Origin: Halopelagius inordinatus
GTDB lineage: Archaea; Halobacteriota; Halobacteria; Halobacteriales; Haloferacaceae
NCBI RefSeq assembly: GCF_900113245.1
Contig: NZ_FOOQ01000005.1
Coordinates: 1 to 64,000, forward strand
Reading direction: 5' to 3'
Length of the DNA stretch: 64,000 nucleotides
Position 1 is the first letter of the stretch; each line of letters begins with the position of its first letter. The notes beneath the pieces were generated by a model. It was not told where the DNA came from, searched no databases, and was given only the letters and a program-made list of their open reading frames with translations. A program made the translations under genes and the position numbers. Below, piece after piece: positions 10,891 through 47,392 of this stretch.

Positions 10891-11257
10891 AGGCGATATC
10901 ACCATCTTCACCGGCGACGTACAACGGAGTACCCCTTTCTGAGAGACGGATTCGTCGCAAATTTATCTCGACTCGGTCGCACGCGCCGACTCGGTACCGG
11001 AAGCGAGGCGCGGAGGAGTATCGTACAGATGACCGGATTGGAGGCGGCGAGATCAGTGTACGTTTTGATAGCAGATATCGCTGTGACTTCAAAACTCTCT
11101 TTGATAGTTTTGACTTGTGGCCCGACGTCCGGTTGCTCGCCGAACCACCGTTATATGCGGCGTTGCGGCGTTTTCCGCTCTGAGAGAGGAGAAAAACGTC
11201 AGAGACAGTTTTGACAGACACACTCAACTATAAGTTTGGACGGCAAAGACAGTCCGT
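10891..11257. promoter_or_regulatory. parA upstream region with repeated AGTTTTGA motif
   Basis: This 367-nt region holds no gene. It contains a perfect inverted repeat TCAAAACT / AGTTTTGA with a 9-nt spacer (11089-11113), further copies at about 11062-11068 (GTTTTGA) and 11207-11214, and a TATA-like CTATAAG at 11228-11234, about 27 nt before the parA ATG. Likely roles are autoregulation of the partition operon or a centromere-like site. Confidence 0.55.
11089..11113. repeat. Inverted repeat TCAAAACT-N9-AGTTTTGA upstream of parA
   Basis: Both 8-nt arms match perfectly. The arms begin about 145-170 nt before the parA start. Related single copies lie closer to the promoter. ParA-type systems commonly bind repeats in their own upstream region, so this is a candidate operator or parS-like site; the protein that binds is unknown. 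Confidence 0.6.
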
Positions 11258-12052
11258 ATGGACGAGCCAGTAAAACTCTGCGTGTCGAATCAGAAAGGAG
11301 GCGTCGGGAAGACGACTATCGCTATCAACGTCGCCGGCGCACTCAACGCTCGCGGGCACGACGTTCTGTTCGTCGACCTAGACCCGCAGGGCAACGCGAC
11401 GGAGAACCTCGGCCTCATGGAAGCGTACGACGACGAACCGCCGACGCTTTTCGACTGCCTCACGGAGGCCGAGAAGCGAGACGAGATCGAGAACATCGTC
11501 CGCGAACACCCCGAGATGGACGTGGTTCCGTCGAACATCGACATGACGGCCGCCGAACCCGAGTTGACGCTGGCGCGTCGAAGCGGCGAGCAACTGGATT
11601 TAGTCCTCCGAGAGATAGAGGCGACGTACGACTACGTCATCGTCGACTGCCCGCCGAACCTCGGGAACCTCATGGACAACGCGCTGTTTGCGACGCAGAA
11701 CGTCCTCATTCCCGCACTCGCCGAGTCGACGTCGAAGCGGGCCTTCGAGTTGTTGTTCGACCACGTCGACGCCTTAGAATACGACTACGAGATAGACATC
11801 CGAGACCGCGCCGTCGTCGTCAACCGCATCGACGTGCGGAAGAAGCAGGCCCGAGAGATGGTCGAGTGGATAAACGCCGCCTTCGAGGACGTACCGGTGT
11901 GGGAGATTCGCGAACGGGCGGACGTCCAGAAGGCTCTCGACGCCGGTGTCTCTCTCCTCGAATTCAACCCCGACTGTGACATGTGCGAGACGTTCCTCGA
12001 AATCGCGGCGAACCTCGACGAACAGTTCGGTCTCACGGAGGCGGACGCATGA
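11258..12052 (+). CDS. parA: ParA/Soj-family partition ATPase
   Basis: A 264-residue deviant Walker ATPase that segregates replicons or protein cargo. The P-loop KGGVGKTT is at 13-20 with the signature lysine K13 and K18; the second motif is VLFVDLDPQGNAT (about 43-55), and YVIVDCPPNLG (about 126-136) is the Walker B region. A leaderless start fits the TATA box at 11228. The downstream gene overlaps by ATGA, so both are made from one transcript. With orc1/cdc6 and repeats nearby, this is likely the segregation gene of this replicon. Confidence 0.92.
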   Translation: MDEPVKLCVSNQKGGVGKTTIAINVAGALNARGHDVLFVDLDPQGNATENLGLMEAYDDEPPTLFDCLTEAEKRDEIENIVREHPEMDVVPSNIDMTAAEPELTLARRSGEQLDLVLREIEATYDYVIVDCPPNLGNLMDNALFATQNVLIPALAESTSKRAFELLFDHVDALEYDYEIDIRDRAVVVNRIDVRKKQAREMVEWINAAFEDVPVWEIRERADVQKALDAGVSLLEFNPDCDMCETFLEIAANLDEQFGLTEADA

Positions 12053-12573
12053 GCGACGATGACCGCGCGGACAGACTCCGGCGGCGGCGCCAACGCGCCC
12101 GTGACCGCGCCCAAGAGGGGTCGGAGGCGGACGACGGCGCAGACGCCGACGACGCCGACGTGGCCGGTGGGGATCGAACCCCCGACTCGGAGGAGGAAGG
12201 AACGAAAGCCGAATCGGGAGAGGCGGACGAGACAGGAGAGGCGGACGAGACAGGAGAGGCGGGGAAACCGTCCGAGACAGCAAAACCGGCAAAACCGGAA
12301 AAGACGGACGGGAGCGAAGAGTCGGACGAGGACGGGAGTCCGGCGACGTCCGTGAAAGACGAACAGAAACCGACGTACATGTACCTCCCGCACGACGTGC
12401 GGCGGAACCTCGACAGGGCGTACGCGATGCTCAAAGCCGATTACGAGTACGAGTTCGACGAGAGTTTCGAGAAGAACCGCCACTTCTACCCTCTCGTCGT
12501 CTCTCTGGGACTCGACGCGATGGACGAACTCGACGCCGAGAGCGTCAAAGAGAGACTCGAAGACGTCGAGTGA
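12049..12573 (+). CDS. ParA partner protein, acidic, with low-complexity linker
   Basis: A 174-residue protein overlapping parA by four bases (ATGA). Residues 1-20 are basic (RADRLRRRRQRARDRAQ), 25-110 are an acidic Glu/Asp/Gly/Lys linker with a repeated EADETG unit, and about 112-174 are a folded domain (PTYMYLPHDVRRNLDRAYAMLKADYEYEFDESFEKNRHFYPLVV). Small proteins of this kind commonly follow parA in haloarchaeal replicons and probably do the job of ParB or a CopG-like centromere binder. The start at 12049 is fixed by the overlap. Confidence 0.8.
   Translation: MSDDDRADRLRRRRQRARDRAQEGSEADDGADADDADVAGGDRTPDSEEEGTKAESGEADETGEADETGEAGKPSETAKPAKPEKTDGSEESDEDGSPATSVKDEQKPTYMYLPHDVRRNLDRAYAMLKADYEYEFDESFEKNRHFYPLVVSLGLDAMDELDAESVKERLEDVE
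12221..12262 (+). repeat. 18-bp tandem repeat inside the parA partner gene
   Basis: Unit AGGCGGACGAGACAGGAG occurs at 12221-12238 and 12239-12256, followed by the first six bases of a third copy. It encodes the repeated EADETG in the linker. Being a multiple of three, changes in copy number would keep the frame. Confidence 0.8.
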
Positions 12574-12617: not shown

Positions 12618-12677
12618 CTAGCTAGTAACAACTAGTAGTAGCTAGTAACTAGTTACTACTAACTACTACTAACTACC
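12618..12677. repeat. CTAG-rich palindromic AT tract between par and orc1 genes
   Basis: Five CTAG tetranucleotides occur in 35 bp (12618, 12622, 12632, 12642, 12649), with a perfect 12-bp palindrome GTAACTAGTTAC at 12645-12656, then direct ACTACTA/ACTAC repeats. CTAG is normally scarce in archaeal genomes, so this density is striking. It is the most AT-rich part of the par-orc interval and could be a DNA-unwinding element, a centromere, or a terminator for the par operon. Confidence 0.65.
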
Positions 12678-12699
12678 AGTTTGCCGCCGTACCGAGTGG

Positions 12700-12760
12700 G
12701 ACACACCACTTCTGCAAGTGAATTCGGGAAAACGGCATTCACTTGTAAGAGTGGTGTGGG
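12700..12760. repeat. Inverted pair of ORB-like repeats downstream of orc1
   Basis: A copy on the - strand (12700-12725, GAATTCACTTGCAGAAGTGG when read on that strand) faces a + strand copy (12738-12760, TTCACTTGTAAGAGTGG). They are separated by about 12 nt. Both belong to the same repeat family as the arms upstream of orc1 and carry the GTGTG tail. The arrangement makes a large dyad next to the CTAG tract. Confidence 0.75.
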
Positions 12761-12791: not shown

Positions 12792-14018
12792 TTAGACGAT
12801 GCCGTGTCGCTGTGCCGTCGTCCGGATATCTTCGAGTACGCTCTCGAGGGAGAGAACGTCGGTGAGTGCGGTCATCGCGCTGGAGAACGGAACGTCGAGC
12901 GCGTAACTGTAGTAGTTCCCGCGAGAGCCGGTTCGGTTCTCTTCGGCCGAGAGGATACCGAGCATCCGAAGATCAGAGAGGTGGTTGTGAATCGACCGTT
13001 GGGCGAGCGGTTCGATGTCGGCTTTCTCACAGAGACTCACGTACTCGTCGTACACGTCTCGCATCCGACAGGGAGTCTCGCGTTGGGCCGCCTTCGAGAC
13101 GACGGCGAGGAGGGCGTAGTGGCCGTTGACGGTGAGTTCTCGCATCCCCTCGACGACGCGTTCCTGTTCCAGTTTCTCTCTGGCGATTTCGACGTGGTCA
13201 CGGGTGATACCCTCGTCGTCGCGGTTCTCCGCGTACTCGCCCGCCAGTCGGAGTAAGTCGAGCGCTTGTCTCGCACTTCCGCTGTCTCTGGCCGCCAACG
13301 CCGCACAGAGGTTCAGCGCCCCGTCGTCGTACGCGCCTTCAGCCAGCGCGACGGTAGCCCGAGATTCGAGGATGTTCTGCAGTTCCGGCGCGTCGTACGG
13401 CGGAAAGTGGAGTTCGCGTTCGCAGAGCGTGTCCTGTGCGCGAGGGTCGAGCCTGTCTCTGAACTTGAAGTCGTTCGAGATACCGACGATGCCGACTTTC
13501 GCGTGCTCTAACTTCCCGTTCGACCGGGCGCGCGGGAGTTCGTACAGCAGTTCGTCCCGTTCCCCGATCGAATCTATCTCGTCGAGGACGACGAGTATCG
13601 TCCCGCCCAACTCGTCGAGTTCCTGGTAGAGTTTCTTGAAGACGGTCTGTTGGGGGTAACCCGTCGAACTTATCTCACCACCCGAGGGACGGAGTTCGTT
13701 CACTAACTCGATTGCGACCTGGTACGACGAGTTGAGCGTCTTACAGTTGAGAGAGAGAACGTGCAAGTCGATATCGTCGTACCGGTCGACGTCTTCTCGC
13801 AGGACCTTCAGAAGGTACTCGGTCACCGCCGTCTTCCCGACGCCCGTGTTCCCGTAGAGGAACACGTTGTTCGGTTCCCACCCGTCCACCACGGGTTGGA
13901 GTGCGTCCATGTACTCGTCTATCTCCTCGTCCCGTTCTTGAATCCGCTCCGGTCGGTAGGACTCCCCCAAGGCGTCCTTGTTGTGGAAGATGTTCTGTTT
14001 CCGCTCGAAGCGGCGCAT
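12792..14018 (-). CDS. Orc1/Cdc6 family replication initiator
   Basis: A 408-residue AAA+ initiator that binds origin repeats and loads the MCM helicase. Walker A GNTGVGKT is at about 56-63, Walker B ILVVLDEID about 30 kDa-domain typical position (near 143-151), and a C-terminal winged-helix domain spans about 310-395 (DVYDEYVSLCEKADIEPLAQRSIHNHLSDLRMLGI). The frame continues to a TTG at 14045, but the ATG at 14018 gives the usual start (MRRFERKQNIF) and lies about 30 nt after a TATA-like TTTTAAGT read on this strand (14045-14052). That TATA overlaps an ORB-like repeat, so the initiator may repress its own gene. Confidence 0.93.
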   Translation of the reverse strand: MRRFERKQNIFHNKDALGESYRPERIQERDEEIDEYMDALQPVVDGWEPNNVFLYGNTGVGKTAVTEYLLKVLREDVDRYDDIDLHVLSLNCKTLNSSYQVAIELVNELRPSGGEISSTGYPQQTVFKKLYQELDELGGTILVVLDEIDSIGERDELLYELPRARSNGKLEHAKVGIVGISNDFKFRDRLDPRAQDTLCERELHFPPYDAPELQNILESRATVALAEGAYDDGALNLCAALAARDSGSARQALDLLRLAGEYAENRDDEGITRDHVEIAREKLEQERVVEGMRELTVNGHYALLAVVSKAAQRETPCRMRDVYDEYVSLCEKADIEPLAQRSIHNHLSDLRMLGILSAEENRTGSRGNYYSYALDVPFSSAMTALTDVLSLESVLEDIRTTAQRHGIV

Positions 14019-14048: not shown

Positions 14049-14170
14049 AAAACCACGGTTACAACTGATTCATCTGATGCAAGTGAAGACACACACACTC
14101 CACTGTTACAAGTGAAGCTAGTGTGAGAGGGTACTCTAGAAGAACAACACACCACTGTTTCAACTAAAGC
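14049..14170 (-). repeat. Left arm of origin: four ORB-like repeats, reverse orientation
   Basis: Reading on the - strand, copies of TTTCACTTGYAACAGTGGTGTGTGTG occur at 14142-14170 (TTTAGTTGAAACAGTGGTGTG), 14088-14117 (TTCACTTGTAACAGTGGAGTG), a half-copy at 14071-14088 (CTTCACTTGCATCAG), and a degenerate copy at 14049-14071 (TCAGTTGTAACCGTGG). All point the same way. The nearest copies overlap the orc1 promoter. Confidence 0.8.
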
Positions 14171-14231: not shown

Positions 14232-14483
14232 TTTCACTCGAAACGGTGGTGTCCGAACGGCGAACGAGCGAGAGTTCGCGTCGCCGATGTCGCGTCACCG
14301 ACCCCCCGTTTTCGCCCTTTCACTTGCAGAAGTGGTGTGTCTGTGTGCCCTCTCGCGCGGCCGACCCGGGCGAACCACCGTCTCGAAACCGTGACCGACA
14401 CCCCCCTCCCCACCTCTCCTCCCCGATTCACTTGCAGCAGTGGAGTGTGTGTGTCGCCGAGTGTTTCACTCGCAACAGTGGTG
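14232..14483 (+). repeat. Right arm of origin: four ORB-like repeats, forward orientation
   Basis: Forward copies start at 14232 (TTTCACTCGAAACGGTGGTG), 14319 (TTTCACTTGCAGAAGTGGTG, followed by TGTCTGTGTG), 14427 (TTCACTTGCAGCAGTGGAG, followed by TGTGTGTGTC) and 14464 (TTTCACTCGCAACAGTGGTG). Spacing is about 87, 108 and 37 nt. Confidence 0.82.
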
Positions 14484-18173: not shown

Positions 18174-18919
18174 GCCTCGGTTTTCGCGTCGGAACTACTT
18201 ATCAGTGCGTCGCTCCCTACCCGAGGCTCCATTCCGGAGAGCCGAACGGGTTTTTATACTGGGGTCGAACCGCGGACGGTACCCGGCGGGATATGCAGAT
18301 GTTGTATACGAATTTCAGATAGATAGTGATAGAATATTAATTTTAGTATTAAAATAGAAATAACTTCGCAAAGCACGCCTTCTGGCACACATAAACCTTG
18401 TAATTAATTAAACGTCTCTAAGCGAAAACGAATTTCGTATACTACGTCTCTACTATCATGGTTATTGGCTATAGTTCGCCAGTTACCGTTACGCGATTAG
18501 TTCTGTAACGGAATCACGTTTGGGGTCCTTCCTCGAGGACCTAGAACGGAAAACTGCCGCGTACACCGCGCCGATTCGTTCGTCTCTCGGAAATGAGGCG
18601 AGTTGCCAGAGGGCGGAGATTCCTCCCCCGGTGGCGAACGCGTTTATCACTCCCGCATCGACGAGGGAGTCGAGCACGGCGAGAAATTCAGTATAAACGT
18701 TGTGGTGACGGCTGCGAACGACCGAGGGGAACCGATTAGCGGACCGGTACCTGCCGAGAGGGAGGATATTTAAACGATATCTGTATCCTTCCTCGTTCTC
18801 CCCTCCCGACTCTTGTGGGTTGTCTGTGGCGATCTGTCCCGGAGAAAATGACTATTTTCGATGCAACGACGTTTGTAGCCTCCACAAACCTTATTTAAAG
18901 ATGTACACGATAAGTGTGT
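18174..18919. other. 746-nt gene-free stretch
   Basis: No credible coding frame. Bases 18297-18480 are markedly AT-rich for this genome (long A/T runs such as AATATTAATTTTAGTATTAAAA). A 62-codon frame on the - strand at 18489-18677 has no family or start context. A TATA-like TTATTTAAAG (18891-18900) and an inverted repeat ACAC-GATAA-GTGT (18906-18918) belong to the promoter of the gene at 18920. It could be remnant mobile DNA or an unusually long regulatory region. Confidence 0.5.
18891..18900 (+). promoter_or_regulatory. TATA box of the gene at 18920
   Basis: TTATTTAAAG is centred about 25 nt before the ATG, the leaderless spacing. The inverted repeat ACAC-GATAA-GTGT lies between it and the start codon, an ideal place for a repressor. 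Confidence 0.6.
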
Positions 18920-46972: not shown

Positions 46973-47392
46973 GGTCGCTCCGAACTCTCGTCTCCGCGTG
47001 CGGTGCGTCCCTCGAACTCCGCCACGACTGTCGTTTGCATACGTGTCACGAACGTGTCTCGGTACCAAAGAACTAGGGCGGCCGTTACTCCGTCCGACTG
47101 ACGGATGCTCCGAGAGAGCGAACGGGCGCTTTACCTGTCCCCCGAGTACAGTTTTGCTATACAAACTATTTTTCTAACTTTCACAGTTTTCTTGTACAAT
47201 ACAGTTTTGCCATCAAAACTAGCAAAAATTCACCGGACGCCGGCGACGCTCTCGGCGTCGATGAAGCGAAAACGGCCGTCCGAACGCGTCTCGGACCCGA
47301 ACGGTTATGCGAGTCTCCACCGTGTCTCGGAGACGCATGACGAGATTCGACGACATATCGACCGACCGGAACCGGGGGACTCAGTAGTGCCG
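46973..47392. promoter_or_regulatory. Region upstream of the esterase and amidase genes
   Basis: About 420 nt. It has an AT-rich central part (47143-47232) containing a perfect inverted repeat AGTTTTG-CCAT-CAAAACT at 47203-47220 and an imperfect copy AGTTTTG-CTAT-ACAAACT at 47150-47167, plus an ACAGTTTTC copy at 47183. The rest has no gene. Alternative amidase starts at 47261 and 47105 are in frame but give poor N-termini. Confidence 0.5.
47203..47220. repeat. Inverted repeat AGTTTTG-CCAT-CAAAACT near the amidase gene
   Basis: A perfect 7-nt dyad with 4-nt spacer; the same heptamer occurs in the parA upstream region but in the opposite arm orientation. It lies about 175 nt before the chosen amidase start and is a candidate operator. 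Confidence 0.5.

Follow-up and report, generated by a model that had tools for sequence, protein, structure and literature searches.

In haloarchaea, clusters of the tetranucleotide CTAG flank the starts of orc1/cdc6 genes, according to Blow et al. 2016 (PMC4752239), who connected them with an orphan N4-cytosine methylase. For Haloferax volcanii, high CTAG density was reported at just one origin, and HVO_0794, for which an SPPY motif has been described, was identified as the CTAG enzyme (Ouellette et al. 2018; PMC5867850). ORBs have been documented on both flanks of orc genes (PMC3528665). The literature has yet to settle what role CTAG methylation and the avoidance of CTAG play in haloarchaea.

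The locus compared here with these systems carries an AT-rich, CTAG-rich tract next to an orc1 gene. We read it, tentatively, as a lineage-specific accessory part of an orc1 replication origin, located on its 3′ side, a view that we consider quite possible and short of established.

Results

A phased, palindromic tract between converging genes

The window (the whole 64-kb stretch of DNA that was analysed) contains a partition operon and an orc1 gene whose 3′ ends converge on a 218-bp gap. The features of the region are as follows.

11059–11257, + strand: region upstream of parA with GTTTTGA-type repeats, a conserved candidate operator/centromere of the par family (comparison of par loci)
11258–12052, + strand: parA, Walker-type partition ATPase (AAA_31, 5e-42; NCBIfam ParA models below cut-off)
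12049–12573, + strand: orf2, presumed ParA partner, whose C-terminal ~75 aa form a conserved domain (Pfam: none above cut-off)
12618–12679, no strand: the tract, an AT-rich, CTAG-rich, ~10-bp-phased TAGTA/TACTA array with a central inversion (sequence, CTAG scan, periodicity and dyad tests, tandem-repeat finder)
12621–12680, no strand: imperfect 60-bp dyad, 21/30 positions symmetric about 12650/12651 (dyad test; inverted repeat I1)
12643–12658, no strand: perfect 16-bp palindrome TAGTAACTAGTTACTA (sequence)
12704–12720, − strand: 3′ ORB-like box, left member of an inverted pair (pattern scan; inverted repeat I2; 83% in the congener)
12740–12756, + strand: 3′ ORB-like box, right member of the pair, followed by a G-string (pattern scan; inverted repeat; congener)
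12792–14018, − strand: orc1/cdc6 replication initiator (TIGR02928, E 3e-136; Pfam Cdc6_lid, Cdc6_C)
14098–14114, − strand: 5′ ORB-like element (pattern scan)
14118–14139, no strand: CTAG pair, 18 bp apart (14118, 14136), upstream of orc1 (CTAG scan; locus comparison)
14321–14337, 14429–14445 and 14467–14483, + strand: three more 5′ ORB-like elements (pattern scan)

The tract, CTAGCTAGTAACAACTAGTAGTAGCTAGTAACTAGTTACTACTAACTACTACTAACTACCAG, is 62 bp long with about 33% GC, versus 65% for the window. It is intergenic, begins 45 bp past the end of orf2 and ends some 25 bp before the inverted ORB-like pair. ORB-like boxes are present on both flanks of orc1. A preliminary description had placed it between the par operon and orc1/cdc6. 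This location holds, though it is one between converging 3′ ends, and because these flank it on both sides the tract is upstream of neither parA-orf2 nor orc1.

A CTAG scan located starts at 12618, 12622, 12632, 12642 and 12649. The five CTAG in 35 bp (12618–12652) first described are therefore present, and the accompanying 12-bp palindrome GTAACTAGTTAC (12645–12656) is read from the sequence as the inner part of the perfect 16-bp one. In the left half, CTAGTA units recur at 12622, 12632 and 12642, a step of 10 bp; in the right half, TACTACTAAC units follow at 12654 and 12664 with the same step. The whole forms a phased array with its inversion centre at 12650/12651. AT content peaks elsewhere in the window (18286–18401 and 47141–47230, down to 18% GC in 60 bp).

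The convergent location would suit a two-way transcription terminator, or a 3′-end hairpin common to the orf2 and orc1 transcripts. The predicted folds (−21.1 kcal/mol, z −2.3 on the + strand; −26.3 kcal/mol, z −1.6 on the − strand) could be cited for it, but these scores are modest and the tract has no credible Rfam match. Archaeal intrinsic termination requires a U-run, and in the sequence none follows the hairpin on either strand. We regard a terminator as very unlikely.

Periodicity and symmetry, not CTAG number, are unexpected

CTAG is scarce in the window, as the preliminary description had supposed: 18 copies in 64 kb versus 92 expected from dinucleotide shuffles, a five-fold depletion. 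Across the whole 3.53-Mb genome, a search for CTAG-N0-16-CTAG-N0-16-CTAG matched at the tract only, with three overlapping starts, all assigned to the tract by deduction from the five CTAG positions in the window. At the background rate of the window, the Poisson probability of five CTAG is about 1.5e-13 per 35-bp window. When the dinucleotides of the tract itself were shuffled, however, 3.1 +/− 1.2 CTAG were obtained, and five were reached in 11% of cases (p 0.11).

By the same type of shuffle test, lag-10 self-similarity was 0.65 versus 0.31 (p 0.001). Pairing of 21 of the 30 positions about 12650/12651 had a p value of 0.004, and this dyad scores joint highest among all 30-bp-arm dyads in the window. 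The CTAG number is thus unexceptional for the composition of the tract, whereas its 10-bp periodicity and dyad symmetry are the unexpected features. The tract is therefore best described as a phased palindromic AT-rich array that is CTAG-rich incidentally, amid CTAG avoidance.

The ordinary CTAG count introduces the main rival to an accessory origin element, namely neutral expansion of an unstable sequence. On this view, tandem duplication in 7- and 10-bp steps, together with template switching, would have enlarged a short TAGTA/TACTA seed in the convergent gap to an imperfect palindrome, with the CTAG copies as by-products of composition. Besides the match between CTAG count and local dinucleotides, it is favoured by the tandem-repeat finder, which reported periods of 7, 10 and 14 in the tract. 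We judge it possible but rather unlikely; the comparisons with relatives described below bear on it from both sides.

The tract is restricted to one lineage

The congener (G001) retains the par operon, orc1 and the 3′ ORB pair (83%), but has no tract at the corresponding place. Exactly there, between orf2 and the ORB pair, it carries 4.4 kb (locus L039, G001:C4) containing methyltransferase-like and phosphotransferase-like genes as well as bioB, for which the genome of the window offers no close homolog. In place of the tract, the congener has only a low-GC patch about 130–190 bp from the ORB pair. In contrast with the tract, the CTAG pair upstream of orc1 is retained at its orthologous place, its members occupying identical positions in both species (−148 and −130 from the model match; loci L223 and L155).

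Wider searches gave a similar picture. Two CTAGTA units 10 bp apart were found in 170 family genomes at the tract alone, plus two single sites at chance level. Three TAGTA units 10 bp apart were found in 392 order genomes at the tract alone, plus three AT-rich sites in one genome that were regarded as chance matches. A Blast search of the tract against plasmids returned no match, and the phased TAGTA pattern had at least 120 matches in viral contigs, taken as AT-rich chance matches. The exact sequence of the tract is, by these sequence comparisons, lineage-specific.

Its absence from the congener, from the other 169 family genomes and from the order genomes (the three chance sites aside) favours neutral expansion, as does the use of the gap as a breakpoint in the congener. 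The difference in gap gene content between the two species might instead suggest the target or scar of a CTAG-preferring mobile element or recombinase, since certain insertion sequences are known to target CTAG (PMC6471742). Yet the tract shows no recognisable element, target duplication or terminal repeats, and the junctions in the congener have no CTAG cluster; we hold this explanation to be highly improbable. Likewise, nothing was found in favour of a resolvase or nickase target, which had been suggested at the outset.

Probable partition repeats lie upstream of parA

It had also been proposed that the block could be a centromere. Centromeres of ribbon-helix-helix ParA partners consist of phased repeats and dyads, and the tract, just downstream of the partner gene, resembles them; its 10-bp-phased half-sites would then form a parS bound by the orf2 protein. 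Two relatives (L007, L008) also have TAGTAAC-type words 3′ of orf2, and L014 has a related dyad, but two relatives are too few to alter the conclusion on partition. A centromere should accompany the partner domain, and the tract does not: it is missing from the congener, where the C-terminal domain of orf2 is 95–96% identical, no such motif lies 3′ of orf2 in 12 plasmid relatives, and the other family genomes lack it. A centromere is therefore not supported, and we hold it to be unlikely. Absence from a close relative with the same par and orc genes, which the preliminary description had itself named as evidence against its proposal, is what the congener displays. At L014, an inverted repeat AAGTTAGTAG-TCT-CTACTAACTT stands 3′ of orf2, and its GTTAGTA/TACTAAC words recur about 440 bp further on with equal spacing.

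The repeats conserved in the par family are located upstream of parA instead. CAAAACT/GTTTTGA words are frequent there and nearly absent downstream; at 19 loci, 19 copies of CAAAACT were counted upstream of parA versus one downstream. In many haloarchaeal par operons (including L354, L355 and L358), the conserved arrangement is either a ACAAACYRGTTTGT palindrome or 9-bp direct repeats such as GTTCGGACA-GTTTTGATA-GTTTGTATG, reaching the start codon and preceded by a conserved promoter-like GTCTGACG-N-TTTA. These repeats are likely the operator and centromere of the par family. Near a more distant parA homolog, a CTAG cluster (CTAGTTAGGATAGCTAGTTAGGCTAACTAG; L113 4980) lies about 60 bp upstream of the gene.

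Homologs of orf2 are widespread beside parA on haloarchaeal plasmids. The C-terminal domain (YMYLP...FEKNRHFYPL; window 12340–12570) has homologs in 47 of 118 genomes and, from sequence comparison, appears as a widespread haloarchaeal family of ParA partners that no Pfam or NCBIfam model covers. AlphaFold predicts a confident helical model (pLDDT 86), whose best fold match was no better than E 1.8. The fold search thus did not confirm a ribbon-helix-helix or helix-turn-helix fold, and Pfam, PDB sequence and fold searches gave orf2 no identity. The acidic linker of orf2 contains an 18-bp in-frame tandem repeat (12217–12262) and is much longer in the congener.

CTAG avoidance is lifted upstream of orc1

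The association of CTAG with orc1 was measured at 59 orc1 loci from relatives, chosen regardless of CTAG, with an upstream window of 600 bp. CTAG density was 2.7 per kb within this window, versus 0.62 in the flanks and 1.41 in equally AT-rich flanks; the corresponding observed/expected ratios were 0.96, 0.34 and 0.55. None of seven other self-complementary C/T/A/G 4-mers rose comparably upstream of orc1 at these loci. Three CTAG in 50 bp occurred in 6 of the 59 upstream windows and in none of the 839 distant ones (p 6e-8). The survey independently confirms the published pattern: close upstream of orc1 the avoidance of CTAG is lifted, and other words of equal composition show no such effect.

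An orc1 homolog was found within about 5 kb at 23 of 40 CTAG-cluster loci from many genera, versus one to three expected; this figure is an estimate, since the cluster loci were hand-picked among the matches listed and dense ones were favoured, a bias from which the 59-locus test is free. The eight orc1 genes of the source genome itself have 11 CTAG in 4.8 kb upstream (2.3 per kb), versus about 0.3 per kb beyond 1 kb. A link of CTAG clusters to origins is supported at class level. Against neutral expansion speaks the survival of the tract where CTAG is otherwise strongly avoided, and at the only type of locus that concentrates CTAG clusters.

On the 3′ side the result was different: CTAG was not enriched near ORB-like sites 3′ of orc1 at other loci (0.72 versus 1.01 per kb). 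Reading the tract as an accessory origin element is therefore weakened.

In four genera (L084 5043, L088 4970, L091 4972, L102 5024), a CTAG cluster like CTAGTTCTAGTACTAGACTAGCTAG lies about 400–500 bp upstream of orc1, and in three of the four it directly adjoins an ORB-like CACCYCTATCGATTTGTT. This cluster is a better conserved system than the tract for probing CTAG function at origins.

A candidate CTAG methylase

The sole PF01555 methylase of the genome (382 aa, with an SPPY motif) is a good candidate for an orphan CTAG N4-cytosine methylase. Its architecture, as predicted from sequence, is right for the CTAG type, and orthologs in 80 of 99 relatives give a distribution close to that published for the CTAG methylase family (174/217; PMC6471742). 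Comparison by eye of methylase presence with CTAG-cluster presence across genomes revealed no obvious separation.

Discussion

The accessory origin element that we tentatively favour draws together the position and composition of the tract, its array and dyad, the ORB pair, the class-level link between CTAG clusters and orc1 genes, and a methylase gene whose type and distribution fit. Orc1 would bind the inverted ORB pair, and the neighbouring AT-rich tract would open easily. Its CTAG sites would be methylated by the orphan CTAG-type N4-cytosine methylase, and methylated CTAG could then report on the replication state of the origin, with a possible effect on initiation, like the GATC clusters at E. 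coli oriC. In such a scheme, location and CTAG density would count more than the exact letters. The unwinding element envisaged in the preliminary description is plausible in so far as the tract has a low GC content and an ORB pair close by, and CTAG clusters are strongly origin-associated in haloarchaea; its melting stays a prediction.

Several observations count against an origin element. Known clusters lie 5′ of orc1, but the tract lies 3′ of it; the congener, with the same orc1 and ORB pair, does without it; its CTAG count is ordinary given local composition, and the window has more AT-rich sites, at 18306 and 47146. Moreover, growth is unimpaired in H. volcanii that lacks CTAG methylation (PMC5867850). 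By its position and lack of conservation the tract falls outside the published class of CTAG clusters, though it may work like a member of it. A bolder version, in which a fast-evolving, methylation-sensitive protein array on the 3′ side of an Orc1 origin would couple origin licensing to partition, as a haloarchaeal counterpart of oriC sequestration with a putative reader protein recognising hemimethylated CTAG, we consider quite unlikely.

Nowhere else in the genome is CTAG as dense as in the tract, which lies beside a recognisable origin; it is therefore a compact, deletable test case. Should it prove no more than a neutral expansion, it would be an unremarkable curiosity.

Among known systems, the centromeres of ParA partners such as SegB, ParG and omega resemble the tract in having short, phased repeats close to a parA operon. 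They differ in that the tract is not conserved with the partner, and the repeats that are conserved here precede parA. The E. coli oriC GATC cluster with Dam and SeqA offers, as a functional analogy only, dense methylase sites at an origin; word, base and enzyme are all different, and no SeqA-like reader is known. Haloarchaeal unwinding elements are flanked by ORBs, and here too ORBs (12704–12756) adjoin an AT-rich stretch of low GC, although the tract lies outside the inverted pair rather than between its boxes and its melting is a matter of prediction. The tract also resembles the CTAG clusters of Blow et al. 2016 (Fig. 6D; PMC4752239). The tract differs from them in lying 3′ of orc1, with only the 14118/14136 pair upstream here, and in being a phased palindromic array that the congener lacks at the orthologous site. 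Like them, it is a non-coding CTAG cluster, far above background in density, beside orc1/cdc6 and ORBs; the genome also encodes a candidate methylase of the expected type.
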